Assembly: GCA_913049555.1 (NCBI GenBank)
Contig: CAJWYM010000022.1
Span: 1 to 43,709 of the forward strand
Source: an uncultured Opitutia bacterium
GTDB taxonomy: Bacteria; Verrucomicrobiota; Verrucomicrobiia; Opitutales; CAJWYM01
Reading direction: 5' to 3'
DNA: 43,709 nt
Shown here: positions 15,648-35,116 of the stretch, piece by piece
How positions within the stretch are numbered: position 1 is the stretch's first letter
Layout: every line of letters starts with the position of its first letter
Notes under the pieces: generated by a model
Seen by the model: the letters and a program-made list of their open reading frames with translations, nothing else
Databases searched by the model: none
Told to the model about the DNA's origin: nothing
Program-made: the position numbers and the translations under genes

Positions 15648-16448
15648 TTATAATTTAAACTTAGGATTTTGGGACAAAAACTGATTGGGATTCTGGAAGA
15701 TGATTCGGTCAATAGTTTCATCATTATGGCCTCTGTGCTTCATCTCAATGGCTGTTTTTGGAACAGCCAATGGATCACTCACTCCCCAGTCACAGGCACA
15801 ATTCAACCAGATATTGTCCAAGCCATTGACTTCTAGTAAGTCAACGGCTCTTGCTTTGCTGCATTTCGAATCTGGGTAGAGTGTAACCCCAGCCCAATAC
15901 CCAAGATCCTTCACCATTTGAATTGTGTGCTCCTCCACGTGATCGATGATGACTTTTGACGGATCTACCTGTGAATGATTCTCCAAAACATCCAGAATGA
16001 GTTTTGTCCCTTTTTTCTTATCTTCCAAGTGAGGAGTGTGTATCAGGATCATTTGATTGTGTTTGCATGCAAAATCTACTTGCATTTCAAAAACCGTCAA
16101 TTCGTTTTTAGTATTGCGATTGAGTCCAATTTCCCCAATTCCCAAGACATTGTCAGCCTCAATAAATTCGGGAATGATTGAAATGACTTCCTCTGCTAAT
16201 TTTATATCTTCAGCTTCCTTTGCATTGATGCACAACCAACTGTAATGGGGAAGTTGAAACTTTTTAGCGCGATTGGGTTCGTACTGAGTGAGTTGTAGGA
16301 AATAATCATAAAATCCTTGAACACTCGTGCGATCAAATCCAGCCCAAAAAGAGGGTTCGCAAACCGCAGCACAGCCAGCAGTGATCATTGCTTGATAATC
16401 GTCGGTAGTCCGACTTACCATGTGGGCATGAGGCTCTATATACCTCAT
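15648..16448 (-). CDS. eboB: EboB-like TatD-family metal-dependent hydrolase
   Basis: A 266-aa amidohydrolase-fold protein. The first metal site is EPHAHMVSRTTDDYQAM at the N terminus. It is followed by CEPSFWAGFDRTSV near residue 30, GIGEIGLNRNTKNE near 100, ILIHTPHLEDKKKGTK near 134, IIDHVEEHT near 164 and CACDWGVSDPL near 217. These supply the His, Glu and Asp metal ligands of TatD-like enzymes, and the SRTTDDY and DWGVSDPL stretches are characteristic of EboB. Its substrate is unknown. The start codon overlaps the stop of the upstream 92-aa gene by 4 nt, so the two are translationally coupled. Confidence 0.9.
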   Translation of the reverse strand: MRYIEPHAHMVSRTTDDYQAMITAGCAAVCEPSFWAGFDRTSVQGFYDYFLQLTQYEPNRAKKFQLPHYSWLCINAKEAEDIKLAEEVISIIPEFIEADNVLGIGEIGLNRNTKNELTVFEMQVDFACKHNQMILIHTPHLEDKKKGTKLILDVLENHSQVDPSKVIIDHVEEHTIQMVKDLGYWAGVTLYPDSKCSKARAVDLLEVNGLDNIWLNCACDWGVSDPLAVPKTAIEMKHRGHNDETIDRIIFQNPNQFLSQNPKFKL

Positions 16449-16723
16449 TGAATTTGCTCCGGTTTACTCCACGCACCAGAGGCTGGTTTGTTGTCTGATG
16501 AGAGGATCGGGTCTGTAGATGGATCGCTGAAATGATCTAGGATATCTTTGGCTTTTTCGGTGCTCATGGAAGATAAATGATTCAATGCTTTAAGGAAAGC
16601 AACATTTCGAGGGTCCTCTAACTCCCCATGACGTTGAATGCGGTCTAGGTAGGCTGCAATTTCAACTAGGTTGTAACGATTTGGCATAAAACCATGTTCA
16701 GTAATGGGGAATTCTGCTTTCAT
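16445..16723 (-). CDS. Small unknown protein in the eboA position
   Basis: A 92-aa soluble protein that opens the ebo unit and overlaps eboB by 4 nt. It is mostly helical up to residue 65 (NRYNLVEIAAYLDRIQRHGE, then KALNHLSSMSTEKAKDILDH), with a Ser/Pro-rich tail. EboA would be expected here, but EboA proteins are usually over twice this length and I recognise no EboA motif. It may be an unrelated accessory protein, a strongly reduced EboA, or a fragment. The tight overlap with eboB and an intact frame argue that it is a real gene. Confidence 0.65.
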   Translation of the reverse strand: MKAEFPITEHGFMPNRYNLVEIAAYLDRIQRHGELEDPRNVAFLKALNHLSSMSTEKAKDILDHFSDPSTDPILSSDNKPASGAWSKPEQIQ

Positions 16724-16839: not shown

Positions 16840-16900
16840 TCAAATAGTCCATACTAGGGATCAAATAATCTATGTAAAATTATTTTTTAAAGTATATAAT
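16840..16900 (+). promoter_or_regulatory. AraC-type tandem operator and -10 box, copy A
   Basis: Distal TCAAATAGTCCATA (16840-16853) and proximal TCAAATAATCTATG (16861-16874) are direct repeats 21 bp apart. A perfect TATAAT (16895-16900) begins 34 bp after the start of the proximal copy. The proximal element covers the place of a -35 box and no good -35 is present, as in activator-dependent promoters. It sits in the 281-nt gap between the divergent ebo unit and the pseudopilin unit, and reads towards the gene at 17005. Confidence 0.75.
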
Positions 16901-17004
16901 GGAGGGTGAATTCTTTTTTCTATTCGTTTTTAGATCGATGGTAACGGGAATGTAAAAAGAATATATAAATTGAAATTTAAGCTTATTTTACTACTTTAAC
17001 AACT

Positions 17005-17757
17005 ATGTGCTTTTTTGGTCCAATACCCCGAATGATTGTTTGTTCTTTCATTTTTCACTTACTATCAGGAGTTAATGTTTGTGCCTCCACAGACAAAATT
17101 GTAGACACAGATATACGTTTGTATGGATGGGATCCGATCTCTCGGTCCTCCTCTGGAAATTTTGAGGGTAGTAAAAGAAAAAATATCACTAAAAAGAAAT
17201 TTTTCTACAAGGCTGGAGAAAGTTACAAACCTATTGTAATAGAACAGGGCGTTACGAGTTCTAAATTTAGATACGTAGGTCCGACCAAATTTGTAATGTA
17301 TACAAAAACTAAGGGAGAGTTTGTATCAATCTCCTCGGCAAAGATTTCTTTAGATGCAAAAGATGTGATCGTTTTGGTTATTTTTATTCCAAATGCAAAA
17401 AATTTAAACCCGCTCAATTGTATCACTGTAGAGCAAAGTCATTTAGATGCTGGCCAACTTCTTTTTATAAATTTAGCTAAAGCGAAGATCCAATTTCGCC
17501 TAGGGCCGAATTTTGAATCTTCTCTCAATCCATTGGACAAAATTGTTTTTAACATGACAAAAATACCAGACCCTGGGGAGAGACTAGTAGCAGCAATTCA
17601 AGAAAAAAATGAAAAATGGAAAATCTTTAAGACTCTTTTCTTTTTAAAGCCCCAAAATAACCAAGCAAATCTTGTGGTGTTTTATCCTTTCACTCTCAAC
17701 GGAAAAGTGCGTCATTCTTTTCACGTAATACCCGTAAAAAAAGGGAGTGATTCTTAG
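17005..17757 (+). CDS. Exported protein of unknown function, pseudopilin unit
   Basis: A 250-aa protein with an N-terminal signal sequence (hydrophobic VCSFIFHLLSGVNVCAS). An alternative start at Met10 (17032) gives a tidier signal peptide. The mature part is rich in beta strands and basic residues, with no domain I recognise. It is 11 nt upstream of the Verru_Chthon cassette A-like gene, so the two are very likely one transcript, and it may be a periplasmic partner of that system. The perfect -10 of the AraC-type promoter at 16840-16900 lies about 105 bp before the start codon. Confidence 0.75.
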   Translation: MCFFGPIPRMIVCSFIFHLLSGVNVCASTDKIVDTDIRLYGWDPISRSSSGNFEGSKRKNITKKKFFYKAGESYKPIVIEQGVTSSKFRYVGPTKFVMYTKTKGEFVSISSAKISLDAKDVIVLVIFIPNAKNLNPLNCITVEQSHLDAGQLLFINLAKAKIQFRLGPNFESSLNPLDKIVFNMTKIPDPGERLVAAIQEKNEKWKIFKTLFFLKPQNNQANLVVFYPFTLNGKVRHSFHVIPVKKGSDS

Positions 17758-17768
17758 GACGCTTTAAA

Positions 17769-20700
17769 ATGATCTCAGAAAATAGAATTTGTAAAAAAGA
17801 ATTGAGGGGATTTGCACTCATTCTTGCTTTGATGATCATGTCTTTGATTCTCGTTCTTTCATTGAGCCTCTCGTCAATGATAAAGAGTTCAATTGCTCAG
17901 GCAAAGGGACTGAGTGACGACCACAAAATTCGACTTACTGCCAGACTTGCGATTCAAGATGCAATCGGGACTTTGCAAAAAGAAGCTGGAAAAGACCAAG
18001 TGGTTACCTCGATGGCATCTATTAAGGATACTAAAATTTCTAACATAAAAGTGGAGGGTGTTGAGAATCCTTATTGGACAGGACTGTGGAATGCAGAAGA
18101 TCGATCTTTTATTCGATGGTTGGTTTCCAGCCCTGATTCTAAGGATTACTCGCAACTGAGTCCATTGTCTACTCCATCCTCGGACTCTGTTGAGATGGTT
18201 CCAGCAAAAGGAGTTCATGGAAATTCAAGAGCAGTCACAGTGCCTTTGCAAATATTGGAGGATGAGAACGGAAAAGAGTTTGGAAGGATCGCTTGGTGGG
18301 TGAGTGATGAGTCAGTCAAAGGGAAACTCAACGCAATAGACCCAAAATACACCTCTAGTTCTGAATCCAACTACATCCATTTACCGGGCAAAACGGGCAT
18401 GGAACTGAGTGGTGAAAACGGTCGAGGACTTTTAAGTCAAACAAATGAGGTTTATCAGGAATTATATAAAGTTTTATCTTTTGACTCGTACAATTTGGTC
18501 AAGAAAAATGAGGTAGAATTAAAAAATTACTGGCATGATTACACGGCTCATTCAAAAGGGGTTTTATCCAATACAAAAGAGGGGGGATTGCGGAAAGATC
18601 TGACTCGGGCTTTGGCTCTAAATTCAACGGAACTGACAGGTCCTATTTTTGTGAATAAGAAAAATAAGGATCTTTGGAGTGGTTGTGGGCCCGATTGGGA
18701 ATTACTAAGATCTTTCTTTAATATGAGAGCGGATTCAAATGGTAAAGTCCAAGTGCGTCCACACCAGATTAATTCAGGGGGATTGCCATTACTGGTCAAT
18801 CGCCAACAACGGTTTGGAGCCGTTCAAAATGGGATCTATCCACTCATTTCACGGATGCAGATTTATTTTTATCCGGTTTTGGTTCCTGATGGATCCGATT
18901 ACAAAGCAAGGATGTATCATGTTCCAGTGATTGCTTTGTGGAATCCTTATGACGTAACTTTAAAGGCGGTGGATTATGTGGTTACCGTTACTTTAGGGGA
19001 TGTAGACCATTTTAATTGGGCTTATGAAATTAAAGACAAAACAACTCCTGTAGCTAATATTATAGCGAGTGGAGTTTTTGAGGACATCATTCATACGACT
19101 AGAGCAGGAGGGTTGTTTCAAACGCAATTGACTTACCGACTCAAATGCCCTGATATTCCTCCCGGAGAGGCAATAGCATTTGGAGTGAGAGATAAAAATG
19201 TCGCGATTCCATCTGACAGAACAGTGCCAGTAGACCTTCATCCTGATGATAAGTTTATCTATGGTTGTTTTGAGGAATCAGTGGACTCTTTCCCTCTCTC
19301 TCTTCCCTACAACAACTACGAGATGCAGGTCTATGCAGACTGTTCAGAATTGTATCCTCAATCTTCGGTTCGGATTTTTAGAGAGCCTGCAAGTGTCAGT
19401 AGTTACAAAGATGCGGGCACTCAAATTTATGCGTTCGGTAGTTCAAAATTGGGAGAAGTTCCTCTACATGCTACAAAACATAAAAAGAAAATAGCTATTG
19501 GGGATCAAACTCCAGTTTTAGATCCCTGTCAGATTAGAGACCCTTCAGGGATAAATGATTCAACTCCGTTTTCAGTAAATCTACCAAATAAATGGCCGGT
19601 CTATGGTTGGGAATGGTCTCATTATTTACCAGAGACTAATTTTTCCTACAATCCGATTGCAGATTTTCTACCCCCAAATCGCATTTATGGAGCTCGCAAT
19701 CTTCGAGCTCCTTTTGTTTCAAAGCTAAGACAACACAGAGATGCGAATGACTTATCCTCCGATATTGGAAATAACAGCAATTATGTCTACATGTCTAAGA
19801 ATGTTCAAAATGTGCAAAGCGATGTGGATCAACAAGTTGCCTTTGAAGCTTTGAGTGGGGGACAAACTTATGTTGGGTATTCTGAGAATTCTTCTGTTGG
19901 TCAACTCAAGTCCATTTTATATCATGCACTGAGTGAGGATGAAGTGGTCCATTCTGTAGGACAATTGAGGCACTGCAATTTGTTTGAATTTATTTGGGCC
20001 ACCAATACTCAGATAGGAAATTCCCAGTCCTTGGCCTTTGTGCCTAGAGACGTAGATCCTGAAAGTCTATTTGATATGACTTCCGCGGCCCAACCCTATT
20101 TTGCCAGACAATTTATGGTCATAGGAGATGTCAATTATATTGCCAACGATTCACTTTGGGATCGGTACTATTTTTCCACTTTAGAGCCCCCTTCTGATCC
20201 ATTTGAAATAAAGAACACCAAGTTAATTCACAGACCATTTCCAGGAGAACCTAAGGAGGATATTTTTGAATTTGACAAATCCTCTGCGCATTTGATGTTG
20301 AATGGAGCATTCAATGTAAATTCAACCTCAGTAGAAGCATGGAAAGGATTGATTGCATCCTTTTATTTTAATGATGCACAGACTGCAAATTATAAGATTA
20401 AAGAAAAGGCGTTGTATTCATTATTTCCCAACCTTCAAGCAGATGAATTCGATGAGGATCCAATTTCTTTAGAAGCATTTGCAGGTTACAGGGCCTTAAA
20501 TTCCTCAGAAATTCAGAATTTAGCAGAAAAAATTGTGGAGCAGGTCAAGTTGAGAGGACCTTTTATGAGCTTGGCTGAGTTTGTGAATCGCAAACTAAAT
20601 AAAGTAAATCCTTTTGCCCAGATGCCAAAAACAGTTTTAGAAAAAGCCAACAACCCGGAATATATGGGTGCTTTGGATTCAGCAATTTATAACAGTGGGA

Positions 20701-21107
20701 TCAATCGCACTCTAGATGCTGTCAAGGTTCTAGAATCTGAGATTCATACAAGTTACTTCGACGGGTCAGGAAATTTTGTTCCTAATAGACAGCCTTTCAA
20801 TCGTGGAGCAGATATGGGATCAAGCATGCAGGGACTATCAAGTTACCTCCAACAGGGGGATCTGTTAGAAAAACTGGGTAGTTTACTGACCGTTCGATCT
20901 GATACTTTTATTATCAGAGGTTATGGAGAATTGGTAGATGCAGTGACTGGAAAGAGGACTGGTAAGCATTGCGAAGCGGTCGTTCAGAGGGTTCCGGATC
21001 CGGTTGAACCTGATTTGATCAACCCTTACGAACCCAGAGCCCAGTCAACGATGGGTAGAAAGTTTAAAATGATTCATTTTCGATGGTTGAGCCCTGATCA
21101 ATTATAG
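17769..21107 (+). CDS. Verru_Chthon cassette protein A-like giant pseudopilin
   Basis: A 1112-aa protein with a type IV prepilin-like N terminus. The short basic leader KKELRG is followed by a hydrophobic helix (FALILALMIMSLILVLSLSL, residues 15-34). Cleavage by prepilin peptidase would be after Gly14. The Glu at +5 of major pilins is absent (Leu), as in the GspK/PilX type of tip pseudopilins. A very long globular domain follows, and its C-terminal part (SLAEFVNRKLN, then DTFIIRGYGELVDAVTGKR) resembles GspK-like helical and terminal regions. Size and architecture match the Verru_Chthon cassette A family. It probably forms a surface or secretion pseudopilus tip. Cassette proteins B, C and D are not next to it. 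Confidence 0.8.
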   Translation: MISENRICKKELRGFALILALMIMSLILVLSLSLSSMIKSSIAQAKGLSDDHKIRLTARLAIQDAIGTLQKEAGKDQVVTSMASIKDTKISNIKVEGVENPYWTGLWNAEDRSFIRWLVSSPDSKDYSQLSPLSTPSSDSVEMVPAKGVHGNSRAVTVPLQILEDENGKEFGRIAWWVSDESVKGKLNAIDPKYTSSSESNYIHLPGKTGMELSGENGRGLLSQTNEVYQELYKVLSFDSYNLVKKNEVELKNYWHDYTAHSKGVLSNTKEGGLRKDLTRALALNSTELTGPIFVNKKNKDLWSGCGPDWELLRSFFNMRADSNGKVQVRPHQINSGGLPLLVNRQQRFGAVQNGIYPLISRMQIYFYPVLVPDGSDYKARMYHVPVIALWNPYDVTLKAVDYVVTVTLGDVDHFNWAYEIKDKTTPVANIIASGVFEDIIHTTRAGGLFQTQLTYRLKCPDIPPGEAIAFGVRDKNVAIPSDRTVPVDLHPDDKFIYGCFEESVDSFPLSLPYNNYEMQVYADCSELYPQSSVRIFREPASVSSYKDAGTQIYAFGSSKLGEVPLHATKHKKKIAIGDQTPVLDPCQIRDPSGINDSTPFSVNLPNKWPVYGWEWSHYLPETNFSYNPIADFLPPNRIYGARNLRAPFVSKLRQHRDANDLSSDIGNNSNYVYMSKNVQNVQSDVDQQVAFEALSGGQTYVGYSENSSVGQLKSILYHALSEDEVVHSVGQLRHCNLFEFIWATNTQIGNSQSLAFVPRDVDPESLFDMTSAAQPYFARQFMVIGDVNYIANDSLWDRYYFSTLEPPSDPFEIKNTKLIHRPFPGEPKEDIFEFDKSSAHLMLNGAFNVNSTSVEAWKGLIASFYFNDAQTANYKIKEKALYSLFPNLQADEFDEDPISLEAFAGYRALNSSEIQNLAEKIVEQVKLRGPFMSLAEFVNRKLNKVNPFAQMPKTVLEKANNPEYMGALDSAIYNSGINRTLDAVKVLESEIHTSYFDGSGNFVPNRQPFNRGADMGSSMQGLSSYLQQGDLLEKLGSLLTVRSDTFIIRGYGELVDAVTGKRTGKHCEAVVQRVPDPVEPDLINPYEPRAQSTMGRKFKMIHFRWLSPDQL

Positions 21108-21438
21108 AGGTGGCAGAATTGTTCATTGCCTAACTGCTTTTAATACACGCAACTCAACCACCTCACAATTTATGCAAAAAGAACTTATAAAATCAAGAAT
21201 ATTAGGGGAAGGATTTTTTGGAATTTTCCAAATTTATCCTTATTGACTAAGTGGTCGTTTTTTCGGTTTTTCTTAGGCAATTTGAACTCTCTTTATAGTT
21301 TGAGCCAAAAATAGATTCAGGGATCCTTTTAATCTCATAGGACTGAAATGTTTAATAAGGAATACAATAGAATTTAAGGTTGCAGAAATTTCAATGAGAC
21401 CTAAATTAAAAACTTTATCTCCTATTTATAAAACCCCA
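21108..21438. other. Gap before the secretin-like gene
   Basis: No gene is supported here. A 7-bp inverted repeat, GAGGTGG (21107-21113) and CCACCTC (21158-21164), follows the stop of the pseudopilin gene, but the 44-nt loop makes it a poor terminator. The rest is AT-rich and contains no copy of the tandem AraC-type element. Confidence 0.4.
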
Positions 21439-22509
21439 ATGAAAATTCTTAAGTTCTTAATTCTAGGATTTATAGTTCCTTTTGCAACGGCTGAAGAGGT
21501 TGCCAAGGTGATTGATCTGGGCACGACTTTGTCCCCCAGTCAAGTGGAGACTTTAGTAAAAAAACTAATCAGCGATCAGGGTTTTTATTCCATAGATTCA
21601 AAGACTTTGTTGATTTATGATGAGGAAAAAAATGCGTCTAAAATTGAAAAATTAGTGCTCTCTCTGAGACATAAGGAAGCACAAGCTGTGATTCCATTGA
21701 AAAGTATTTCTTTTGCAAGCATTGAGAAATTGATCCATCCCAAACTTTCTAACTTTGGAAGTCTTGGGTTTTTAGAGAATGAGAATGCCGTGATTGTCTA
21801 TGATACCCCCGAAAAAATCGAACAAATCAAACAAATGATCAATCAGGTCGATCGCCCTCGTTTGAATGTGAGGGTCCTTGTTGATTTTGTAGGAAATCGC
21901 AATGAGGAATCAGTAAATATTGGGGTGGGCCTTGGTAAGTCTCAAGATGGAACTCTTTTAAAAATGGAAAATGGTCGGGTCGTTGATCACGCATTGAATG
22001 GATTCAGCCTGAAAGGTTCCAAGTTGAAATCTAATTCAGATAGCAATCGTCAAATGCAGTTGCTGGTTCAAAGCGGTAAGCAAGCTAGCCTATTTGTAGG
22101 AACAGAGGAAATCGATCCAGTTCAGTTGTCTGCGTATTTTAAAAGTCATCGATTGGAGATTTTTGAAAACGGGGCTTGGAGAACCTATCAATGGAAAAAT
22201 GATCAGGAATTAAACATGAGAAGAATCGGTGCTTCGATGCAGGTTCAACCATTTGCTTATCAGAATGGAAAGATTTCAGTCGATGTTTTTCCTCAATTTT
22301 CTGTTAAAGATCGTATCGGGAAAGAACAATCCGTTCGTATCGAGGAACTGGTTTCCACCGTTCAAGTGGAGGAAGGTCAAAAAATTCATCTTGGAAGCTT
22401 AATGCAAAATAAAAAAGGCAAGCTTTCCCAAATTTTTTCAGGTTTTGGTTGGAATAACAGTTCCAACCAATCCTTTATGAATGTTTATCTAACCGCTTAT
22501 TTGAAGTAA
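21439..22509 (+). CDS. Exported secretin-like protein (type II/III secretion N-domain)
   Basis: A 356-aa protein with a clear signal peptide (MKILKFLILGFIVPFATA). I chose the ATG at 21439 over the in-frame ATG at 21394 because the signal peptide starts there. Residues 30-140 resemble the N-domains of secretins: a strand-helix repeat ending with NAVIVYDTPEKIEQIKQMI and the linker VDRPRLNVRVLVDFVG. The end, VQVEEGQKIHLGSLM, resembles the VxxGETVxIGGL segment of the secretin core. It is shorter than typical secretins, so it may be an accessory or reduced outer-membrane component. Following the pseudopilin gene, it may serve the same surface system. Confidence 0.65.
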   Translation: MKILKFLILGFIVPFATAEEVAKVIDLGTTLSPSQVETLVKKLISDQGFYSIDSKTLLIYDEEKNASKIEKLVLSLRHKEAQAVIPLKSISFASIEKLIHPKLSNFGSLGFLENENAVIVYDTPEKIEQIKQMINQVDRPRLNVRVLVDFVGNRNEESVNIGVGLGKSQDGTLLKMENGRVVDHALNGFSLKGSKLKSNSDSNRQMQLLVQSGKQASLFVGTEEIDPVQLSAYFKSHRLEIFENGAWRTYQWKNDQELNMRRIGASMQVQPFAYQNGKISVDVFPQFSVKDRIGKEQSVRIEELVSTVQVEEGQKIHLGSLMQNKKGKLSQIFSGFGWNNSSNQSFMNVYLTAYLK

Positions 22510-22829
22510 ATGAGAAAGAATGGCTCAAGTTAGAATGCAAGGTATCTGAATCATTGAACCTAAAATCTAAATTTTCTGAATAATTTTCTTCTTACACTAA
22601 GCTCTTCGCTGAAATGTTTTCTGGAAATTATTCAAGTTCCGATTCGTGGTCTTTTTAGTGCTTTAAATAATTTCTCTAAATTCCTCTCTTTTTTAACTTT
22701 ATCTCTCAATGAATGTTTGATGTTTAGGAGGCTTTAAATCCAAGCGTTCTCAACGCTTTTTATCCATAAATCATTCCATCTAAATCTTTTAAAAGGGGAA
22801 AATTAGATGGATTTAACAAGTATCTATGA
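22510..22829. other. Gap before the first sulfatase, with an inverted repeat
   Basis: No gene is seen. A perfect 9-bp inverted repeat, TCCATCTAA (22775-22783) and TTAGATGGA (22803-22811), with a 19-bp spacer, lies just before the sulfatase start. It carries TCCAT cores facing each other, and a further TCCATA lies at 22763. It may be an operator or an mRNA hairpin. The 21-bp direct-repeat geometry of the three other sites is absent. Confidence 0.4.
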
Positions 22830-24446
22830 ATGAACACCAAAATCATGATTATGAAAAAGCCATTCAGTCCATTTTTAATTATTTTTTTATCCCTGTTTTT
22901 TTTGACTTCAGCGATAGAAGCTAAAAAGAAAACCAATGTGATTGTCATCTTGTATGATGATATGGGTTACTCGGATCCTGAGTACATGGGTGGGGAGGCT
23001 CTAATGCCTAATTTGTCAAAGTTAGCTAAAAATGGGGTTACTTTTTTAAACTGTATGAACAATGCTAAATGCGCTCCCACTCGCTGTGCACTCATGTCTG
23101 GAATGAATAGTATGAAACTCGATGTTCAGGGTGAGAAAGGAGGGGATTTTATTAAAAACAATGCTGCATCCGTTGCTGAAGTTTTGCAGAAAGATGGTTA
23201 TACTACAATTCTTGCAGGAAAGTGGCATATAAGAACTCCTGTATTAGAAGCCGGTTTTCAATACAGGTTCGGGGAGCGCTACCATGCATCTTATTTTAAA
23301 GATTCTATTCGGTATTTGATGAACCAAGACGAGTTGGTAGATAAAAACACATTGCCTGATGACTATTACAGTACGATTGCCTATACGGACTATGCAATGG
23401 ATACTGTGAAAAAACAAGCCATCGACAAAGAAAAGCCCTTTTTTCTCTACTATGCCGTTCATACCCCCCATTTCAATTTTTCTGCTCCCAAAGAGTATAT
23501 TGACAAGTATAAGGGTCGATATGATGAGGGATTCAATGTTCTGAGTGAAAAGCGCTATCAAAGAATGATTGATAAAGGAATTGTGGATCCTTCCCTGTAT
23601 GAATTGGCTCCGCTCTCTCATGATGGAGAGCAAACGAAGTTGTTCCATTGGGGAGATTTCAATTCAAGAGAGCAAAAATATTTCGCACGCAAACTTGAAG
23701 TCATTGCAGGCATGCTGGACATTGCTGATGAACAAGTGGGTAGATTGATTGAGATGTTAAAAGAAACTGGTCAATTGGATAACACAATGATCGTATTTCT
23801 GTCTGACAATGGAGCTTGTCCTGTTCGGGGGACATTTGGCGGACCCAACCCTAACAAAGCAAATGATGAAATGCTTAATAAGATGGGGGAACCAGGGTTC
23901 AAAAGTGCAGGTGACAGTGGAACTGCGATTGCAGCTTTTCAGAACACCCCTTTGCGTGGGGGTAAACAATCTTTATGGGGCGGAGGAATGAGAACCTCTA
24001 TGATCATTCACTGGCCCGAGGGAATGACTCCGGATGCATCAGATGGTTATGTTCGCGAACCTGTACAAATTATGGATATAGCACCTACTATCTATGAAGC
24101 CACTGGATTGAAGTATCCTAATAAAATAGGCGAAAGGATTTTAGATCCAATGGATGGTACGAGTCTCAAACCTCTTTTAACGGGTGGAAAACTTCCTGAT
24201 CGTGATTTTTGGTTTTCTTTTCGCTACTACAGGATGGCAAGATCCGGCAAATACAAAGCTGTTGGTTTTCTGCCAAATTACGATAAAAAGAACGCTCTTT
24301 GGCAATTATTTGATTTAGAAAAAGACCCCAGTGAGATGAGTGATCTTTCACAATCGATGCCCGAAATGACGGAAAAATTAAAAAAGAGGGCTCTTTCCCT
24401 TCACGATAAATTTAAAAAGAAGTCCAAACTTAAAAAAAATTTATAG
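22830..24446 (+). CDS. Exported sulfatase 1 (arylsulfatase A-like, S1)
   Basis: A 538-aa sulfatase with a signal peptide (PFSPFLIIFLSLFFLTSAIEA). Met8 at 22851 is an equally good start. The metal-binding DDMGYSD begins at residue 43. The formylglycine motif CAPTRCALMSG has C81 as the residue to be converted, and AGKWHIR (K131, H133) and FLSDNGACP complete the active site. It hydrolyses sulfate esters, presumably on a sulfated glycan in the periplasm or outside the cell, after maturation by an enzyme not encoded here. It is closely related to the next gene, with shared blocks such as MGYSDP-YMGGE and FLNC-NNAKCAP. The C terminus is Lys-rich (KKKSKLKKNL). Confidence 0.93.
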   Translation: MNTKIMIMKKPFSPFLIIFLSLFFLTSAIEAKKKTNVIVILYDDMGYSDPEYMGGEALMPNLSKLAKNGVTFLNCMNNAKCAPTRCALMSGMNSMKLDVQGEKGGDFIKNNAASVAEVLQKDGYTTILAGKWHIRTPVLEAGFQYRFGERYHASYFKDSIRYLMNQDELVDKNTLPDDYYSTIAYTDYAMDTVKKQAIDKEKPFFLYYAVHTPHFNFSAPKEYIDKYKGRYDEGFNVLSEKRYQRMIDKGIVDPSLYELAPLSHDGEQTKLFHWGDFNSREQKYFARKLEVIAGMLDIADEQVGRLIEMLKETGQLDNTMIVFLSDNGACPVRGTFGGPNPNKANDEMLNKMGEPGFKSAGDSGTAIAAFQNTPLRGGKQSLWGGGMRTSMIIHWPEGMTPDASDGYVREPVQIMDIAPTIYEATGLKYPNKIGERILDPMDGTSLKPLLTGGKLPDRDFWFSFRYYRMARSGKYKAVGFLPNYDKKNALWQLFDLEKDPSEMSDLSQSMPEMTEKLKKRALSLHDKFKKKSKLKKNL

Positions 24447-24499: not shown

Positions 24500-26122
24500 A
24501 TGACTCATTTTTTAATTATATTTCTCACGATCTTCACTTCGGGTTTATTATTTTGTAAGCCCAATGTCATTTTGATATTGGTGGACGATATGGGGTATTC
24601 GGATCCCGGATATATGGGTGGTGAATCGGAAACTCCTAACTTGGAGAAACTCTCCACAGATGGAATTACTTTTTTAAATTGTTTCAACAACGCTAAATGT
24701 GCTCCATCCCGGGCATCATTAATGACAGGAATGAGTTGCCAGCGGGTAAAAGCCTTTAAATCTGCAGGTAATATTGAAACAAATCATGCGACTACAATTG
24801 CAGAAATTTTAGCCTCTGAGGGGTATACAACGATTTTATCCGGCAAGTGGCACATAAATCCCTCGCCTTTGGATATAGGATTCCAATTTCATTATGGCGC
24901 AAAGTTGACCCCTATGTATTTCAAAAGGGATGTTTTGGGAGTTCCGGGTGGAAAAAGACCTGGACCTTTGACTTTGGAAGGAGAGGAGGTTTCAGCCAAC
25001 TCATTGCCTGATGATTGGTACGGAACTACGGCCTATACCGACTATGCGATTGAAAAAATTGATAAAGAGGCAATCAGTCAGGGGAAACCATTTTTTGTTT
25101 ATTTAGCCTTAAATGCCCCTCATTTTCCGCTCTCAGCCCCCAAAGAAGTGGTCGATAAATATGAGGGTATTTTTGATCTTGGAACGGATAAGATTCGCTT
25201 GCAAAGGTATCAGCGAATGATTCAACGTGGGATTTTAGATCCAGATAGTATTGATCTGCCAGAAATGAATAAAGATTTAGAGGGAAACATTCCTCAATGG
25301 GATTCTTTCAACAATAAAGAGCAAAGATTGTTTAAAAGAAAACTTCAATTGATAGCAGGTATGGTGGATGTGATTGATCAGGAGGTGGGTAAATTGGTTC
25401 ATTTTTTAAAACAAAAGAATCAGTTTGAGAATACATTATTCATATTTCTTTCTGACAATGGAGCCTCTGCGGAATCTGGAATTTATGGCGGCTGTCCCTT
25501 GGATACCATGACGGATGAAGATATAGATAAGCTGGGTACTCGAGAGGGAATTTTAGTTAATAATAACAGTGGAACCATTGTAGCAAATGTTCAAAATACT
25601 CCTTATAGAGGGAATAAAACTAGTTTGTGGGAAGGGGGTATGAAAACTTCCATGATTGTTCATTGGCCAGAGAAAATTTCTTTTGAGGCTGCTAAATCTT
25701 ATAACAGAACCCCTGTTTCAATTTATGATTTAGCGCCAACAATTTATGATGCAACCGGGGTTAGTTATCCAAGTCAGATCCACGGTAGAAAATTGAATCA
25801 CATGGATGGAGTCAGTATTATCCCACTTTTGGAATCTGTAGAATTGAAAAATCGCAATCTTCGTTTTGCTTACAAGCGGGATCAAGTAATCCGAAATAAA
25901 GAATTTAAACTTTATGGGAATCGTGGAAAAAAATCTACCTTATGGCAATTGTTTGATCTGCGCAACGATGAGAGTGAAATCAAGGATGTTTTTAGTGAAA
26001 ATCCTGAAATTGCCGAGTCTATGATCAATGATTGGCGGGATTTTGATTCTAAATACGAGATTGTATCCGGTTATGACCAGTTTTTTAGCTCCAACTCAAA
26101 AAAGAAAAAATCCAAAAATTGA
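24500..26122 (+). CDS. Exported sulfatase 2 (arylsulfatase A-like, S1)
   Basis: A 540-aa sulfatase with a short signal peptide (THFLIIFLTIFTSGLLFC). Active-site elements are LVDDMGYSD near residue 28, the canonical formylglycine motif CAPSRASLMTG with C67, SGKWHIN near 115, and FLSDNGAS. Overall layout and many local blocks match sulfatase 1, so the pair looks like a tandem duplication that has diverged, perhaps to act at different sulfate positions. It lies 53 nt downstream of sulfatase 1, probably in the same transcript. The C terminus ends in SKKKKSKN, again strongly basic. The substrate position cannot be read from sequence. Confidence 0.93.
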   Translation: MTHFLIIFLTIFTSGLLFCKPNVILILVDDMGYSDPGYMGGESETPNLEKLSTDGITFLNCFNNAKCAPSRASLMTGMSCQRVKAFKSAGNIETNHATTIAEILASEGYTTILSGKWHINPSPLDIGFQFHYGAKLTPMYFKRDVLGVPGGKRPGPLTLEGEEVSANSLPDDWYGTTAYTDYAIEKIDKEAISQGKPFFVYLALNAPHFPLSAPKEVVDKYEGIFDLGTDKIRLQRYQRMIQRGILDPDSIDLPEMNKDLEGNIPQWDSFNNKEQRLFKRKLQLIAGMVDVIDQEVGKLVHFLKQKNQFENTLFIFLSDNGASAESGIYGGCPLDTMTDEDIDKLGTREGILVNNNSGTIVANVQNTPYRGNKTSLWEGGMKTSMIVHWPEKISFEAAKSYNRTPVSIYDLAPTIYDATGVSYPSQIHGRKLNHMDGVSIIPLLESVELKNRNLRFAYKRDQVIRNKEFKLYGNRGKKSTLWQLFDLRNDESEIKDVFSENPEIAESMINDWRDFDSKYEIVSGYDQFFSSNSKKKKSKN

Positions 26123-26155: not shown

Positions 26156-26216
26156 TCAAATAGTCCATAATTGTAATCTAAAAGTCCATTTAAATTTTTT
26201 ATTCTTAAATTATTAT
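26156..26216 (+). promoter_or_regulatory. AraC-type tandem operator and -10 box, copy B
   Basis: Distal TCAAATAGTCCATA (26156-26169) is identical to the distal element of copy A. Proximal TCTAAAAGTCCATT (26177-26190) starts 21 bp later, and TATTAT (26211-26216) starts 34 bp after the proximal copy. The block lies in the 130-nt gap before the third sulfatase and ends 36 bp from its start codon. It would drive the genes at 26253 and 28212. Confidence 0.75.
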
Positions 26217-26252: not shown

Positions 26253-28190
26253 ATGCAACAAATAACTTTAATTTCCCTATTTATATTATTTCAACTTTTA
26301 ATAGGAAAGTCTTTTGCTGATGAAAAAAAAATCAGTGGATCGAAACCCAATATTTTATGGATAACGGGAGAGGATATGAGCGCAAGATGGCTGGGTTGTT
26401 ATGGAAACAAGCAGATAGAAACCCCTAACTTTGATAAGTTTGCCAGTGAAGGTTTTTTGTATTCGAATTGTTTCACTCAGTCTCCTGTATGTGCTCCTGC
26501 AAGGAGCGGTTGGATTACGGGAATCCATCCTACCTCCTTGGGAACTGTATATATGCGAAGCAAAAATCCAATTCCAGAGCGCTTGAAGCTTTACCCTGAT
26601 CAATTACGTGCCAACGGATACTTTGTAGCTAATTGGACTAAAACAGACTACAACTTTTCAAATAGACGGGAAAAAGGCCACAACGGTGGTGGAGAAAATC
26701 AAGGTACTTGCGGTCACTATTTAAAAACTTGGGATCATTATGGCAAATTTGCTTGGGAAAATCCAGATCGGGAGCTCAATCAACCTTTTTTTCAGGTAGT
26801 TAACACCGCGGGCTGTCATGAATCTTTTCTACACAGGTCCAGCAATACGAATACTCACCCTAAAAGTAAGATTACCGTGAATCCAGAGGAAATGAAACTG
26901 GCTGCCTATCATCCAGATATTCCGGAGATGAGAATGGACTATGCTAGATACACTGTAGGAGTCATGAAGGCAGACAATAGTCTTGGTGCAATATTAAATA
27001 AATTAAAGCAAGATGGACTCTCAGAAAATACGATTGTTGTTTACGCCTCGGATCATGGAGGGGTTATTGGTAGAAGCAAACGATTTTTGTTCGATTCTGG
27101 AACTCACTCCGCTCTGATCATTCGCATCCCGGAAAAGTTCAAGTATTTATGGCCTGATCAGAATGTCGGAGTTGTGGTAGATCGTTTGGTAAGTTTTATT
27201 GATATGCCAAAAACTTGGTTGAGTATTACTGGATCTGCAGTTCCAAAAGAAATGCAAGGCAATATTTTTCTAGGCAAAGACGAGGAAGAACCAAGGCAGT
27301 TCGTTCACATGGGAAGGCAAAGAATGGACGAGGTGCCTGATATGCAAAGAGGAATTCGAGATGGACGTTATTTGTATATACGCAATTTTGAACCCTTTCG
27401 CCCCAATGGACAACACCTAGCTTATCTTTGGAAGGCTCCCTCTATGAATGCTTGGGAAAAGCATCACTTGGCAGGAAAAACCGACGCAATCACAGGTGCT
27501 TTTTTCAAACCAAAGCCCGTGGAACAACTTTTTGATTGCCTTCAAGATCCTGACAATGTGGCCAATCTTGCTGGAAATCCAGACTATGCGGACCGTTTGA
27601 AGCAAATGAGAACTTCACTCAAAGATAGACAAGTGGCCATCCATGATTGCGGTTATTTGCCGGAGGATATGTTATTGGCCCGCTCAAAAAAGCACCAAAT
27701 GCCGATCTATGATTTGATTCGAACTCCAGATTTTTTTGATCAAGTAAAGTATATGGAGGCCGCTGATTTAGCTAATTTTGCTTCTATTGAGGATGCTTCC
27801 GCCTTGTTTGATTTGCTAGAGTCTGAGGATGAAGCACTCCGCTATTGGGGAACTGTTGGATTTTTACATCTAGGTAAAGAAGCAGCTACCCCCGCGGTCT
27901 TAGCAAAAATGACAGGATTTTTAAAAACAGAAGTTGAGAATTTTAGCACTCTGGACATCCGAGTAACTGCCGCCTTGTATTTGGGACTTTTAGGCAAGGA
28001 GAAAAATGAAGTCATCCATTGCTTAGCTGAGTCGATTGTGGTGGCTGAAAGTCTCAGGGCTTGGGGAAATGTATTTCTATTAGGAAAACAAATAGAAGGG
28101 ATTGCTGAAGTTTTGAGCAATATGAAATTAAAATCAAAAGACAAGGAGCGGTTGGCAGTGTTTCAATCCCGCTTAAAAAATAAAATTTAA
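26253..28190 (+). CDS. Exported sulfatase 3 (heparan N-sulfatase-like) with helical C-terminal extension
   Basis: A 645-aa sulfatase, the longest of the set, with a signal peptide (LISLFILFQLLIGKSFA). The metal motif is ITGEDMSARWLGCYG (E40-D41 replacing DD), and the formylglycine motif CAPARSGWITG has C80. The segment that usually reads GKWH is NWTKTDYNF, and ASDHGG is present; both recall the N-sulfoglucosamine sulfohydrolase group. After about residue 500 an alpha-helical stretch with HEAT-like repeats (ASALFDLLESEDEALRYWGT, then DIRVTAALYLGLLGK) is added, probably for protein or glycan contacts. An AraC-type promoter (copy B) lies directly upstream. The next sulfatase follows after 21 nt. 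Confidence 0.92.
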   Translation: MQQITLISLFILFQLLIGKSFADEKKISGSKPNILWITGEDMSARWLGCYGNKQIETPNFDKFASEGFLYSNCFTQSPVCAPARSGWITGIHPTSLGTVYMRSKNPIPERLKLYPDQLRANGYFVANWTKTDYNFSNRREKGHNGGGENQGTCGHYLKTWDHYGKFAWENPDRELNQPFFQVVNTAGCHESFLHRSSNTNTHPKSKITVNPEEMKLAAYHPDIPEMRMDYARYTVGVMKADNSLGAILNKLKQDGLSENTIVVYASDHGGVIGRSKRFLFDSGTHSALIIRIPEKFKYLWPDQNVGVVVDRLVSFIDMPKTWLSITGSAVPKEMQGNIFLGKDEEEPRQFVHMGRQRMDEVPDMQRGIRDGRYLYIRNFEPFRPNGQHLAYLWKAPSMNAWEKHHLAGKTDAITGAFFKPKPVEQLFDCLQDPDNVANLAGNPDYADRLKQMRTSLKDRQVAIHDCGYLPEDMLLARSKKHQMPIYDLIRTPDFFDQVKYMEAADLANFASIEDASALFDLLESEDEALRYWGTVGFLHLGKEAATPAVLAKMTGFLKTEVENFSTLDIRVTAALYLGLLGKEKNEVIHCLAESIVVAESLRAWGNVFLLGKQIEGIAEVLSNMKLKSKDKERLAVFQSRLKNKI

Positions 28191-28211: not shown

Positions 28212-29696
28212 ATGAAAAAAAAACAGTTTGTACTTTCATGCTTGTTAATTATTGGTGTCTCTATTTTTGGCCAGAGTTCATCCCCAAATGTTGTTTTTAT
28301 TTTAACAGACGACCAAAGATGGGATGCCTTGAGCTGTATGGGCAATCCTTATTTAAAGACTCCAAATATTGATCGTCTTGCTCAAGAAGGCGTTCTTTTT
28401 AAAAATCATTTCTGCACCACTTCTTTATGTTCTCCGAGTCGGGCCTCAATTTTAGGGGGTTTGTATGCGCATGCACATGGTGTGGTTAATAATTTTACTG
28501 ATTATCCTAAAGATTTGCCTACTTTTCCACGTCAACTGCAAGAGGCCGGGTATTCTACAGCTTATATCGGAAAATGGCACATGGGTGAGGCAGATGACAG
28601 CAAAAGGCCAGGATTTGATCATTTCATTACCCACCGTGGACAGGGAAAATACTTTGATACAGAGTTTAGGGAGAACAGTGGGCCAAGAAAAGTAGTTCCT
28701 GGATATTACACAAATGTCGTAACAGATATGGCGATTGATTGGATCGATTCGTTGAAAAATGAGGAGCCCTTTTTGCTAATGTTAGGCCACAAGGCTCCTC
28801 ATAGTTTTTATTATCCAGAAAAAAAATACGAACGTGTTTTTGATTCAATCCGGGTTCCTTATCCAGAGACTGCTTTTGAATTGAGTAACAAACCCAAGTG
28901 GATCACTGAGAGATTAAACACTTGGCATGGGATCTACGGACCTTTATTTGATTGGAGGAAAGATTTCCCAGACTCATCCGCCTCAGGGATGCTTGCATTC
29001 GAGAATATGATTCGGGCTTATTGGGGGACATTACTTTCAGTGGATGACTCTGTGGGTCGACTTTACAAAAAGTTGGATCGCATGGGAGTTTTGGACAATA
29101 CATTGTTTATATTTACGAGCGATAATGGTTTGCTCAATGGGGAGCATGGAATGGTTGACAAAAGAACGGGGCATGAACCTTCGATTCGCATTCCCCTTGT
29201 CGTTCGTTACCCCAAGCTTGTTTCCCCTAAATTCCCTAAAATAATTGAACAACAAACGCTCACTCTCGATTTTGCTGCTTCTATTTTGGATATTTGCGAT
29301 CAAAAACCACTCCCAATGACACAAGGCAGTTCCTGGAAAAAATTGATCACTGATGGAGATTCAGATTGGAGGACAAGTTGGTATTACGAATACAACTATG
29401 AATATCAATTTCCATACACTCCCAACGTGCGAGCCCTGAGAACCGATCAATGGAAGTTCATTCGGTATCCACATGGAGATGGTTCTGAAGACAAACATAT
29501 GGCAGAGTTGTACAATCTCAATGAGGATCCCAATGAGAAGTTGAATCTAATACGAGATCCAAATTACAAAGACCTGATTCAAAAACTCAGCAAGGAATTA
29601 GATCAGCTCATATTAGCAGCCAATCCAGATAAAGAGGATTGGATGCCGATCGATCAGGGCATAAAGGGAAATCTACCAGACGAAGAGATCCGTTAG
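28212..29696 (+). CDS. Exported sulfatase 4 (N-acetylglucosamine-6-sulfatase-like, S1)
   Basis: A 494-aa sulfatase with a signal peptide ([19 protein letters not shown]). Active-site elements are [16 protein letters not shown] near residue 29, the formylglycine motif [11 protein letters not shown] with C73 (Gly in place of the usual Thr before the final Gly), YIGKWHMGE near 120, and [14 protein letters not shown]. The TDDQRWD and NGEHGM stretches resemble N-acetylglucosamine-6-sulfatase-like and related S1 enzymes. It is 21 nt behind sulfatase 3 and should share its promoter. Unlike most sulfatases here, it has no basic C-terminal tail (it ends LPDEEIR). Substrate is inferred only as a sulfated sugar. 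Confidence 0.92.
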
Positions 29697-31395: not shown

Positions 31396-31456
31396 TCAAA
31401 TAATCCATATGTTTAGTCTAAAAATCCATACTATTTCAGCTGTTTGCAATTATATT
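31396..31456 (+). promoter_or_regulatory. AraC-type tandem operator and -10 box, copy C
   Basis: Distal TCAAATAATCCATA (31396-31409) and proximal TCTAAAAATCCATA (31417-31430) are 21 bp apart. TATATT (31451-31456) begins 34 bp after the proximal start, the same geometry as copies A and B. It lies in the 215-nt gap before the cytochrome fusion gene, with its -10 box about 70 bp before the start codon. Confidence 0.75.
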
Positions 31457-31526: not shown

Positions 31527-34106
31527 ATGAATCCTTTATTACTGTTTATTATATTCGCTTGTTTCTCTGTATGTTTTGGGTTTGACCGAAGTCAAATCGA
31601 CACGGACCCAGATACCTCCCCGTTGAATCCCGAGGTATCTCGTAACAAAATTTTTGTCAAAGAACCTTTTCAAGTAGATTTGGTTGCTTCGGAGCCTCTA
31701 GTCAATGAACCGATTTGTATGGTTTGGGGTGGTGACGGCTCTTTGTATGTAGTGGAACTTCGAGGATATATGCAAGACCTAGACAATACTGGAGCTCAAG
31801 CTCCTGTAGGAAGAGTGGTTCGTTTGGTAGATGAAAATCAAGATGGGATCTGGGACAAAAAGTCTGTATTCATCGATGAATTAGTGGAACCTAGAGCTTT
31901 ACTTGCAGTCAAAGGTGGAATCTTAGTGGGCGCTCCACCGAACATATTCTTTTGTAAAGATACCAATGGAGATGGGGTTGCAGATGTTCAGAAATCAATC
32001 TATGACAAGTTCGGTTCCAGAAATGGGAATGTGGAGCACAAACACAACGGTCTTATGTGGGGATTGGACAACTGGATTTATAATGCCAAAACTTCGGATC
32101 GTTACCAATACATTCCTGACGATCAGGGTGGAAAAATCATTCAAGGAAAAACAGGTTTTCGAGGTCAGTGGGGAATTACCCAAGACAACGTTGGGAATCT
32201 ATATTCTACAATCAATTCAAATCCATGGACTGGAGAGATGATAGGATTGGATTATTTAATGCATGACAACTTGAGTTTTGATCCAATGTTCAATGATCTT
32301 GCAAGGATTGAGCCTGATTTTAAAACGGTTTGGCCGATTCAAGGAACTGCCGATGCTCAAGCAGGGAGAGGGATTTTAAGAAAAGAGGATCGTTCTTTGA
32401 TTAAATTTACGGCTATTGGAGGCCAAACGCTTTTTCGGGGTGACAAGCTTGGTGAGGAGATGGTGGGTCAATATTTTATTCCGGAACCAGTGGGTCGTCT
32501 TGTAAGGCGAGGCATTTTTCTTGAAGATGAAGATGGTTTTAAAACTTTGACCAATCCTGAAAAAGAGAATCAGGTTGAGTTTCTTGCTTCCAAAGACCCA
32601 AATTTCCGTCCTGTCTACTCTTATACGGGTCCTGATGGATGTTTGTATATTATAGATATGTATCGTGGGATTATTCAGGATGGAAATTGGACAAAAGAGG
32701 GATCCTATCTCCGAAAAGAAATCAAGCGAAGAAATCTGGATAAGAATATTCAGAGGGGTCGAATTTACCGAGTTATCAAAAAGGGGTTCGAAGCAGATCG
32801 TATCCCTAAAATGGACTTTTTCTCCAATGAACAGTTGATCTCAGCATTGGCTCACCCGAATGGTTGGTGGCGAGATGAAGCCCAAAAACGTTTGGTGCTT
32901 GCAAAGGACCGTTCTGTGGTTCCTGAACTAAAGAAACTTTTGTCTGAGGAGAATTCTGGCTTGGGTAGATTGCATGCTATATGGACTCTACAGGGTCTAA
33001 ATGCTTGGGATAAAGATTTAGCACGAATCGCTGTTAAAGATGAAGATTGGCGAGTGCAAGTAGCTGCTATTAGAGCCAGTGAAAATTCTATGCTAAATGA
33101 TACGGAGTTTGTGCAGTTGTTTGATGATATGGAGGTCTCCAATGTTAGAGTTGCCAAGCAACTTATTTTGTCATTAGGCCTTTGCAACAGTAAAAAAGGG
33201 GTTTCAAAACCTGTGAAATCGACCGCCAGTCAAATCGTTTCCAAAGTATCCATGAAGCATTTTACGAATGAACTCATTGTTCTGTCTACAGTTGTATCTA
33301 TGAAAGGCAAAGAGATTCAAATGTTAGCCAACATTTATGAGAGTAATACTCCAGCATCTCAATCTGAAACTTGGATTCGTATTTTGTCTCGAGTGATTTT
33401 AAAGTCAGGCAATGCTGAGACCGTTGAATATTTGGTGAATGGTGCCCTCAAAAAGGATCTTGAATTTCAAAAAATGGTGATTCATTCGATTGCGGATGCT
33501 ATCCCTCAGAATAAAACCAGAAAACGGCTTCAAGTGAATTTAGTTCGGTTTGACAGTAAACCAGAGGCTTTAACCCAATTAGCCAAAATCAGCAAACTGG
33601 ATACTGAGACAGCAAAAAAAATGAAGGTTGCGATGCGATGGTTCACTTGGCCTGGAGAATCTCGATTTGATCAGGAGTTTGCAGTGCCTCCAATGGTTGC
33701 ATGGGAAAAGGAATTGTATTCGCAAGGCAGCACGATTTATTCAGGGCTCTGCTCCGCTTGTCATGGCAAAGAGGGTGAGGGAGTTAAAATGGGAGCCAAT
33801 CAGTATCTTGCACCTGCATTTGCTGGTAACAAACGGGTCGGAGGCAAACAGGATGTGGTCACCCGAATATTACTACATGGAATGACTGGTCCAATTGACA
33901 ACGTTACTTACGGGGGCTTGATGGCATCAATGGGTAACAATGATGACAAATGGCTTGCTGCAGTTCTTACTTACATTCGTCGATCTTGGGGGAACGAGGC
34001 CTCAACAATTTCTGAACATGATGTGAGAGCTATTAGAAGGAAATATGTGGATCGAAAAACCCCTTGGACTCAAAAAGAGTTAGCGGTGAAATCGAAGAAA
34101 AAATAG
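31527..34106 (+). CDS. PVC-type membrane-bound dehydrogenase-like protein with HEAT repeats and cytochrome c
   Basis: An 859-aa exported protein (signal MNPLLLFIIFACFSVCFG) with three parts. Residues 40-410 form a beta-propeller like those of glucose/sorbosone dehydrogenases (DENQDGIWDKKSVF, KDTNGDGVADVQKS, SYTGPDGCLYIIDMYRG). Residues 440-700 are helical, HEAT-like (HPNGWWRDEAQKRLVLAKD). Residues 735-840 form a cytochrome c domain with haem motif CSACH (C742, C745, H746) and a likely Met ligand in GGLMASMGNN. It probably oxidises a sugar or sugar derivative in the periplasm and passes electrons to haem c; the substrate is inferred. It ends KSKKK. The ThuA-like gene starts 5 nt after its stop, and AraC-type copy C lies upstream. 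Confidence 0.9.
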   Translation: MNPLLLFIIFACFSVCFGFDRSQIDTDPDTSPLNPEVSRNKIFVKEPFQVDLVASEPLVNEPICMVWGGDGSLYVVELRGYMQDLDNTGAQAPVGRVVRLVDENQDGIWDKKSVFIDELVEPRALLAVKGGILVGAPPNIFFCKDTNGDGVADVQKSIYDKFGSRNGNVEHKHNGLMWGLDNWIYNAKTSDRYQYIPDDQGGKIIQGKTGFRGQWGITQDNVGNLYSTINSNPWTGEMIGLDYLMHDNLSFDPMFNDLARIEPDFKTVWPIQGTADAQAGRGILRKEDRSLIKFTAIGGQTLFRGDKLGEEMVGQYFIPEPVGRLVRRGIFLEDEDGFKTLTNPEKENQVEFLASKDPNFRPVYSYTGPDGCLYIIDMYRGIIQDGNWTKEGSYLRKEIKRRNLDKNIQRGRIYRVIKKGFEADRIPKMDFFSNEQLISALAHPNGWWRDEAQKRLVLAKDRSVVPELKKLLSEENSGLGRLHAIWTLQGLNAWDKDLARIAVKDEDWRVQVAAIRASENSMLNDTEFVQLFDDMEVSNVRVAKQLILSLGLCNSKKGVSKPVKSTASQIVSKVSMKHFTNELIVLSTVVSMKGKEIQMLANIYESNTPASQSETWIRILSRVILKSGNAETVEYLVNGALKKDLEFQKMVIHSIADAIPQNKTRKRLQVNLVRFDSKPEALTQLAKISKLDTETAKKMKVAMRWFTWPGESRFDQEFAVPPMVAWEKELYSQGSTIYSGLCSACHGKEGEGVKMGANQYLAPAFAGNKRVGGKQDVVTRILLHGMTGPIDNVTYGGLMASMGNNDDKWLAAVLTYIRRSWGNEASTISEHDVRAIRRKYVDRKTPWTQKELAVKSKKK

Positions 34107-34111
34107 CACTG

Positions 34112-35116
34112 ATGTCACCCGCTTATCCGTTTCCATTGATTAAAATATTTTTAATCATTACCTATATTCATAGTCTGGTTTTCGCTAATGGAAATGTTCA
34201 GTCTTACCAAGCTGAAGAGCAAGCCATAGCAAAACAAATCACCCAATTGCTTTTAAAGCAAAAGCAATTGAAGATCGATATTAAGTATATGAAAAATGCA
34301 TCGGATGTTGAGTCCGCTGTGGATTCCATTGTTGTTGTTCCTCCAAAAAAAGAACGTTCTCTCTTAATTTTTTCTAAAACTACTGGGTTCCGACATGGTT
34401 CTATCGAGTTAGGAACCGCAGTGTTCCAAAAAGTAGCCGAGAAAACTGGAGCATTTACAGTGGAGGTCAGTGAAAATATGGATGATATAAACACTGAGAA
34501 TCTAGCTCGTTTTGATGCAATTATGATGTTAAACACAACAGGCAATCCCATTCATAGAAAAGATCCAAGAAAAGCATTTGATAATTTTTTAAAAGAAGGA
34601 AAGGGTTTGATTGGGATTCATGCGGCGACTGATTGTCATTCCAATTGGAAAGAGTATATGTCAGCGATGGGAGGACTTTTTGCAGGTCATCCTTGGTTTT
34701 CAAAAAGCTTAGTGACTCTTTGCAATGAAGATCCTAACCATCCATGCGCTCACATGATCCCCCAAGGATACAAGATTAAAGATGAAATATATCAATACCA
34801 AGACGATAAATATTTCACAAGAGATGCATTGAGAATTTTGGTCAGTCTGGATCTTCATGGTGAGGATATGTTTCGCGATAAAGCCAAAAGGAAAGATCAT
34901 GATTATGCGGTTTCTTGGATTCGAGAATACGGAAAAGGAAAGGTTTTTTATACCAATCTTGGTCACAATGAAAGTACCTTTATGAACCCGATCGCTCTTC
35001 AGCATATGGTATCTGGAATACAATATGCATTTGGTGATATAGAAGCGGATGCTACTCCTTCTGCAAAAATTGGCAAGCTTCCCAAGGCTCCTCCCGCTGA
35101 GTTTTTAAGGAATTAG
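34112..35116 (+). CDS. Exported ThuA-like domain protein
   Basis: A 334-aa protein with a signal sequence (FPLIKIFLIITYIHSLVFA), a short coiled-coil-like segment (residues 32-60), then a ThuA-like fold. That fold is marked by SLLIFSKTTGFRHGSIELG, IMMLNTTGNPIHRKDP, GKGLIGIHAATDCHSNWKEY, FAGHPW, and GKGKVFYTNLGHNES. ThuA proteins have been linked to disaccharide (trehalose) utilisation through 3-keto sugars and have a glutamine-amidotransferase-like topology. I placed the start at 34112, 5 nt after the cytochrome fusion gene; the frame from 34064 would overlap it. The pair suggests oxidation of a sugar followed by processing of the keto product, which is an inference. Confidence 0.88.
   Translation: MSPAYPFPLIKIFLIITYIHSLVFANGNVQSYQAEEQAIAKQITQLLLKQKQLKIDIKYMKNASDVESAVDSIVVVPPKKERSLLIFSKTTGFRHGSIELGTAVFQKVAEKTGAFTVEVSENMDDINTENLARFDAIMMLNTTGNPIHRKDPRKAFDNFLKEGKGLIGIHAATDCHSNWKEYMSAMGGLFAGHPWFSKSLVTLCNEDPNHPCAHMIPQGYKIKDEIYQYQDDKYFTRDALRILVSLDLHGEDMFRDKAKRKDHDYAVSWIREYGKGKVFYTNLGHNESTFMNPIALQHMVSGIQYAFGDIEADATPSAKIGKLPKAPPAEFLRN

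Follow-up and report, generated by a model that had tools for sequence, protein, structure and literature searches.

Glycan-degradation clusters of Verrucomicrobiota have been described as rich in sulfatases and free of SusCD, with sulfatases and PSCyt genes in the same neighbourhoods (PMC8857213, PMC5615132). A text search of these two papers showed that AraC and pilins are unmentioned in both and that regulators are unmentioned in PMC8857213. We also found no paper that deals with Verru_Chthon cassettes, and none describing an AraC regulon that serves glycan use in Verrucomicrobiota. In class-II AraC promoters, the second half-site covers the -35. The published half-site of the Escherichia coli AraC protein is TAGC-N7-TCCATA (PMC4514859). 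In Verruconatronum alginivorum (Opitutales), the alginate cluster includes a pulG-like pseudopilin with 67 homologues in that genome, and a further pseudopilin is among the proteins raised on alginate in the proteome (PMC13274419). A pseudopilin controlled together with glycan use thus has a precedent in the alginate data; the comparison with the giant GspK-like protein described below is one of protein type, and substrate and regulator differ.

Here we analyzed a window of 43,709 nucleotides, the whole stretch of DNA under study, from an uncultured Opitutia bacterium. Similarly to the Verrucomicrobiota glycan clusters (PMC8857213, PMC5615132), this genome combines sulfatases with PVC-type cytochromes, glycoside hydrolases and exported proteins; unlike in those clusters, a shared cis-site here joins separate clusters and a pseudopilin pair. 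We consider it likely (probability of about 0.75), from sequence evidence, that the copy of this site in front of the pseudopilin pair, operator A, is a class-II AraC/XylS-type operator that wires the cassette into a sulfated-glycan regulon together with operators B, C and six further sites.

A Shared Operator Precedes the Pseudopilin Cassette

Operator A consists of two direct 14-bp half-sites 21 bp apart (16840-16874, + strand; half-site consensus TCAAATAATCCATA), built as TCAAATAGTCCATA-N7-TCAAATAATCTATG (Table 1). At up to three mismatches, the window contains three sites, A, B and C, and none besides, all on the + strand and each inside an intergenic gap, in comparison to a mean of 0.02 sites (largest 1) in 100 dinucleotide shuffles of the window. 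With a matrix built without A, operator A ranks third of 87,350 window positions, with B and C the only higher ones. Half-site 1 is common to all three operators as the 14-mer TCAAATA(G/A)TCCATA, and the likeness of A to B is limited to the 48-nt site (75% identity). The -10 boxes all start 20 bp after half-site 2, with that of A matching at 6/6 positions and those of B (TATTAT) and C (TATATT) at 5/6. An earlier note on this DNA had placed a copy of the sulfatase-type operator before the pseudopilin unit, which the pattern scan, shuffles and matrix rank confirm; its statement that A has the best -10 holds among A, B and C, a perfect TATAAT also being present at a sulfatase site outside the window (C5:29204). 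The direction of A, towards the genes of the exported protein and giant pseudopilin as the note also proposed, agrees with the orientation of the site and with TATAAT at 20 bp.

TABLE 1. Coordinates of the operators and genes discussed, in window positions.
Feature	Position	Strand	Remarks
ORF of 92 aa, nearest minus-strand gene of the ebo-type unit	16445..16723	-	No family match; bounds the divergent gap on the left
Operator A, upstream half-site TCAAATAGTCCATA	16840..16853	+	From pattern scan, shuffles and matrix rank
Operator A, downstream half-site TCAAATAATCTATG	16861..16874	+	21 bp from the upstream one; geometry places it across the -35 position
-10 box of A, TATAAT (6/6)	16895..16900	+	Starts 20 bp after half-site 2
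Exported protein, 250 aa	17005..17757	+	First cassette gene; N-terminal hydrophobic stretch
Giant GspK/Verru_Chthon_A-like pseudopilin, 1112 aa	17769..21107	+	Second cassette gene; prepilin-type N-terminus ...RGFALILALM
Secretin-like protein (Secretin_N + Secretin)	21394..22509	+	Possibly reached by read-through from A
Sulfatase	22830..24446	+	Without own operator copy
Sulfatase, second	24500..26122	+	Without own operator copy
Operator B, TCAAATAGTCCATA-N7-TCTAAAAGTCCATT	26156..26190	+	Before sulfatases; -10 TATTAT at 26211-26216
Sulfatase behind operator B	26253..28190	+	
Sulfatase behind operator B, second	28212..29696	+	
Operator C, TCAAATAATCCATA-N7-TCTAAAAATCCATA	31396..31430	+	-10 TATATT at 31451-31456
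DUF7133/PVC-type heme-binding CxxCH protein behind operator C	31527..34106	+	
ThuA-domain protein behind operator C	34064..35116	+	

The whole genome was scanned for the operator by pattern search, which returned nine matches at up to three mismatches and none for the reversed-pattern control. The match at C58:11860 (three mismatches) lies inside a coding region and was dropped. A looser pattern added one site with a 22-bp period at an end of contig C18, and contig C47 ends in identical sequence; a 55-bp overlap between these contigs (end of C47 and start of C18; L142, L101) makes them probable neighbours. This site reads into a sulfatase on C47, with TATATT at exactly 20 bp, and the join brings a sulfatase gene and an AraC gene to either side of a single operator. 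Together with the eight sites kept from the scan, it makes nine convincing sites, whose targets are sulfatases (three sites), the DUF7133 cytochrome/ThuA pair, a DUF1080 protein, a ThuA protein, two small exported proteins and the cassette behind A. Outside the window, the scan sites precede a sulfatase (C5), the DUF1080 (C8) and ThuA (C9) genes and the small exported proteins (C37 and C61), which are homologous to each other; since the latter two carry the operator as well, targets that encode no enzyme are not confined to A. At the C37 site (L012:9060-9124), before a 143-aa exported protein, there are three half-sites, 31 and 21 bp apart with the third one 31 bp upstream, possibly a more complex operator.

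At two mismatches, the operator was found in none of 272 other genomes of the order, the exact pattern has three matches in 257 Gb of other genomes, which is near the estimated chance level, and there is none in viral contigs. Collectively, the counts from the window, the genome, the order and the 257 Gb indicate a real operator signal that is peculiar to this lineage. The genome is the sole member of its genus and family, and no relative has both operator and cassette.

A separate observation concerns one of these three exact matches, in Mucilaginibacter corticis (L050:6961-6994), with letters nearly as in A (TCAAATAGTCCATA-N7-TCAAATAATCTATT). It is followed 21 bp downstream by a Bacteroidota-like -7 box, TACTTTTG, and the gene about 215 bp downstream of the match has a CxxCH cytochrome-type motif; this match may not be due to chance.

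Promoter Geometry and Candidate Regulators

A -10 box with at least five matches lies 20-21 bp after half-site 2 in six of eight sites, a number reached by none of 4000 shuffled sets; the C37 and C8 sites have no good -10 at the expected place. The core TCCAT is present in 12 of 16 half-sites, and the remaining four differ from it by one letter. This arrangement resembles that of the E. coli araBAD promoter, whose sequence was checked against 5348 E. coli genomes: as in I1-I2, the direct half-sites are 21 bp apart, the B-box TCCATA of the AraC half-site is present, the downstream half-site falls at the -35, and 20 bp separate half-site 2 from the start of the -10. The operator thus combines direct half-sites about 21 bp apart with the -35 overlap and fixed -10 distance of class-II AraC operators. 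In contrast to E. coli, the A-box TAGC is absent, with a conserved TCAAAT instead, the targets are many and scattered, and the likely ligand comes from sulfated glycans. No looping operator is shown here, though C37 has a third half-site.

There is no AraC gene within the window, and the AraC DNA-binding domain is matched 24 times in the genome. Operators occupy the divergent gaps of AraC-like genes at three places: C8, where two operators face opposite ways, C18/C47, and C9. The C8 protein (C8:4018-4923) and its C18 paralogue (C18:179-1084) are 40% identical and, of 12 paralogues scored with the NCBIfam AraC model (NF007860), reach 116 and 114 bits compared with at most 80 bits for the other ten; both are below the curated cut-off of 208 bits and are AraC-like proteins rather than AraC. 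Moreover, an AraC homologue from another family of the order (L133) has two ATAATCCATT (TCCATT) boxes 21 bp apart in its own divergent gap; other AraC homologues have single TCCAT boxes or weaker repeats, which are only suggestive. Based on the operators in divergent gaps, the AraC-model scores and the L133 repeat, the regulator of A is most likely the C8 protein and/or its C18 paralogue, with three AraC genes near operators not allowing one regulator to be singled out. A weaker 21-bp repeat on the minus strand (L014:5017-5051) faces back to the C8 AraC gene, as for autoregulation.

From the site, its repeat, geometry, distribution and target genes, we infer how binding, activation and ligand sensing would proceed. 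An AraC/XylS-type dimer would bind the two direct half-sites of A and, with the downstream half-site overlapping the -35, recruit RNA polymerase to the TATAAT at 16895. The resulting transcript would comprise the exported protein and giant pseudopilin genes (17005-21107), and perhaps continue further, as no strong terminator-like sequence was found in the gaps 21108-21393 and 22510-22829, so that A may feed the secretin-like gene and two sulfatases by read-through. The same type of regulator would act at B, C and the six further places, in front of sulfatases, DUF1080, ThuA and small exported proteins, and would sense a sugar released from the glycan. The araBAD-like geometry, the AraC-gene gaps and the L133 repeat together point to a probable class-II AraC-type regulon that includes the pseudopilin cassette, and the same regulator type at A and at the sulfatase sites would wire this cassette into sulfated-glycan use. 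The predicted AraC-type regulon is new and of ordinary design, with one uncommon member. The earlier note had proposed that, if the same regulator acts at A, the cassette would be induced jointly with glycan desulfation; one regulator type at A, B and C and such co-regulation are well supported at the level of sequence by the shared operator and its genome targets.

Alternative Readings of Operator A

The sites could be divided among at least two paralogous AraC-type regulators of overlapping specificity (C8, C18, C9), in which case A may answer another signal than B and C. This is a tentative but genuine possibility given three AraC genes with an operator in the divergent gap, half-sites that vary and the 22-bp period of the C18/C47 site; on the other hand, A, B and C are nearer to each other than to most other sites, sharing the half-site 1 14-mer. 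Direct repeats of about 11 or 22 bp are recognised by PhoB/OmpR-type response regulators, too, which counts in favour of a regulator of such another class at A. We regard this as improbable, since the B-box, 21-bp period and -10 distance equal those of araBAD, the operator adjoins AraC genes, and the AraC homologue L133 has the same box. It is slightly less probable still that A has no function and arose by chance or as the decayed remnant of a duplication: none of the six remaining pseudopilin cassettes in this genome carries the operator and only the cassette of the window does, as might be expected for a stray copy, but neither half-site of A has been lost, its -10 is the best in the window, shuffles yield only 0.02 sites, and the restriction of A-B likeness to the 48-nt site is as under selection, not recent copying.

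Operator A also lies in a divergent gap, 117 bp from the nearest minus-strand ORF, and could mainly control the ebo-type unit on that strand, by activation at a distance or by repression. The ebo name is fair, as EboE exceeds its curated cut-off and is accompanied by EboC-like and AroB-like genes. The earlier note was right that the gap is divergent; the nearest minus-strand start lies at 16723 instead of 16448. A minus-strand promoter-like match (TTGACG-16-TAGGAT, 16843-16816) overlaps half-site 1 of A, but such matches are fewer in the region than in shuffles (40 vs 49.1), and the gap between the 92-aa ORF and 17005 contains no operator in the ebo direction. A may still affect the ebo unit, as the note suggested, though this is not supported, and main control of this unit by A appears very improbable, with the orientation of A and its perfect TATAAT at 20 bp pointing to 17005 and the remaining sites preceding glycan or exported-protein genes. 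The class-II AraC-type operator serving the cassette is our preferred reading.

The Pseudopilin Cassette and Glycan Use

The giant pseudopilin has a prepilin-type N-terminus, in which G14-F15-A16 is invariant in 11 relatives and followed by a hydrophobic stretch. It resembles Verru_Chthon cassette protein A (TIGR02600) and GspK (NF037980) in this N-terminal prepilin-like segment, but scores far under their cut-offs, with a weak N-terminal match of 18 bits to the former (cut-off 332) and 20 bits to the latter (cut-off 130; N-terminus only). Among 11 family members, weak N-terminal matches were obtained for TIGR02600 in 6 and for NF037980 in 5. The exported protein encoded at 17005-17757 falls in no Pfam or NCBIfam family. 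Searching solved structures with profiles of the two cassette proteins gave nothing useful for either, and a single-sequence structure model of the exported protein (pLDDT 32) was too poor for use. Assembly ATPases (PF00437) are present in the genome.

Of 105 genomes examined from the order, 83 have giant pseudopilin matches, often with many copies each, and in relatives the gene is usually beside a relative of the exported protein. This genome has 118 sulfatase-family matches in 3.1 Mb, a very high density. Among the seven cassette copies listed in it, five are within 6 kb of one of these sulfatase matches (P ~0.01, for a genome fraction no larger than 0.24); in relatives, sulfatases are near pseudopilins in 5 of 20 regions vs 2 of 20 control stretches, which is not significant. 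Cassette flanks in relatives include GH2, GH28, Melibiase and GH43 enzymes and SSF or MFS transporters. The surface attachment proposed by the earlier note is not supported; with sulfatases, glycoside hydrolases and sugar transporters as neighbours here and in relatives, the gene content around the cassettes fits glycan use better than attachment.

As the other six cassettes of the genome lack the operator, the operator link is not general for the pseudopilin family, and the C51 cassette, which adjoins a GntR-type regulator gene, suggests that cassettes come under the control of whatever regulator lies nearby. The cis-site joining the giant pseudopilin pair to sulfatases makes this pair a candidate part of the machinery for attack on, or uptake of, sulfated polysaccharides. 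More speculatively, and with considerable doubt, each sulfated-glycan gene set might carry a giant pseudopilin of its own together with the exported partner, the pair forming a substrate-specific tip that secretes or captures glycan-related cargo or the glycan, under the same sugar sensor as the enzymes; the dozens of pairs per genome would then constitute a swappable substitute for SusCD, without which verrucomicrobial glycan degraders have been reported (PMC8857213). The operator set provides nine target promoters and two candidate regulators, and the role of this large pseudopilin family thereby becomes testable. Some of the giant pseudopilin copies in three relatives (G082, G103 and G116; L054-L056) have internal stop codons, which suggests turnover of the family.
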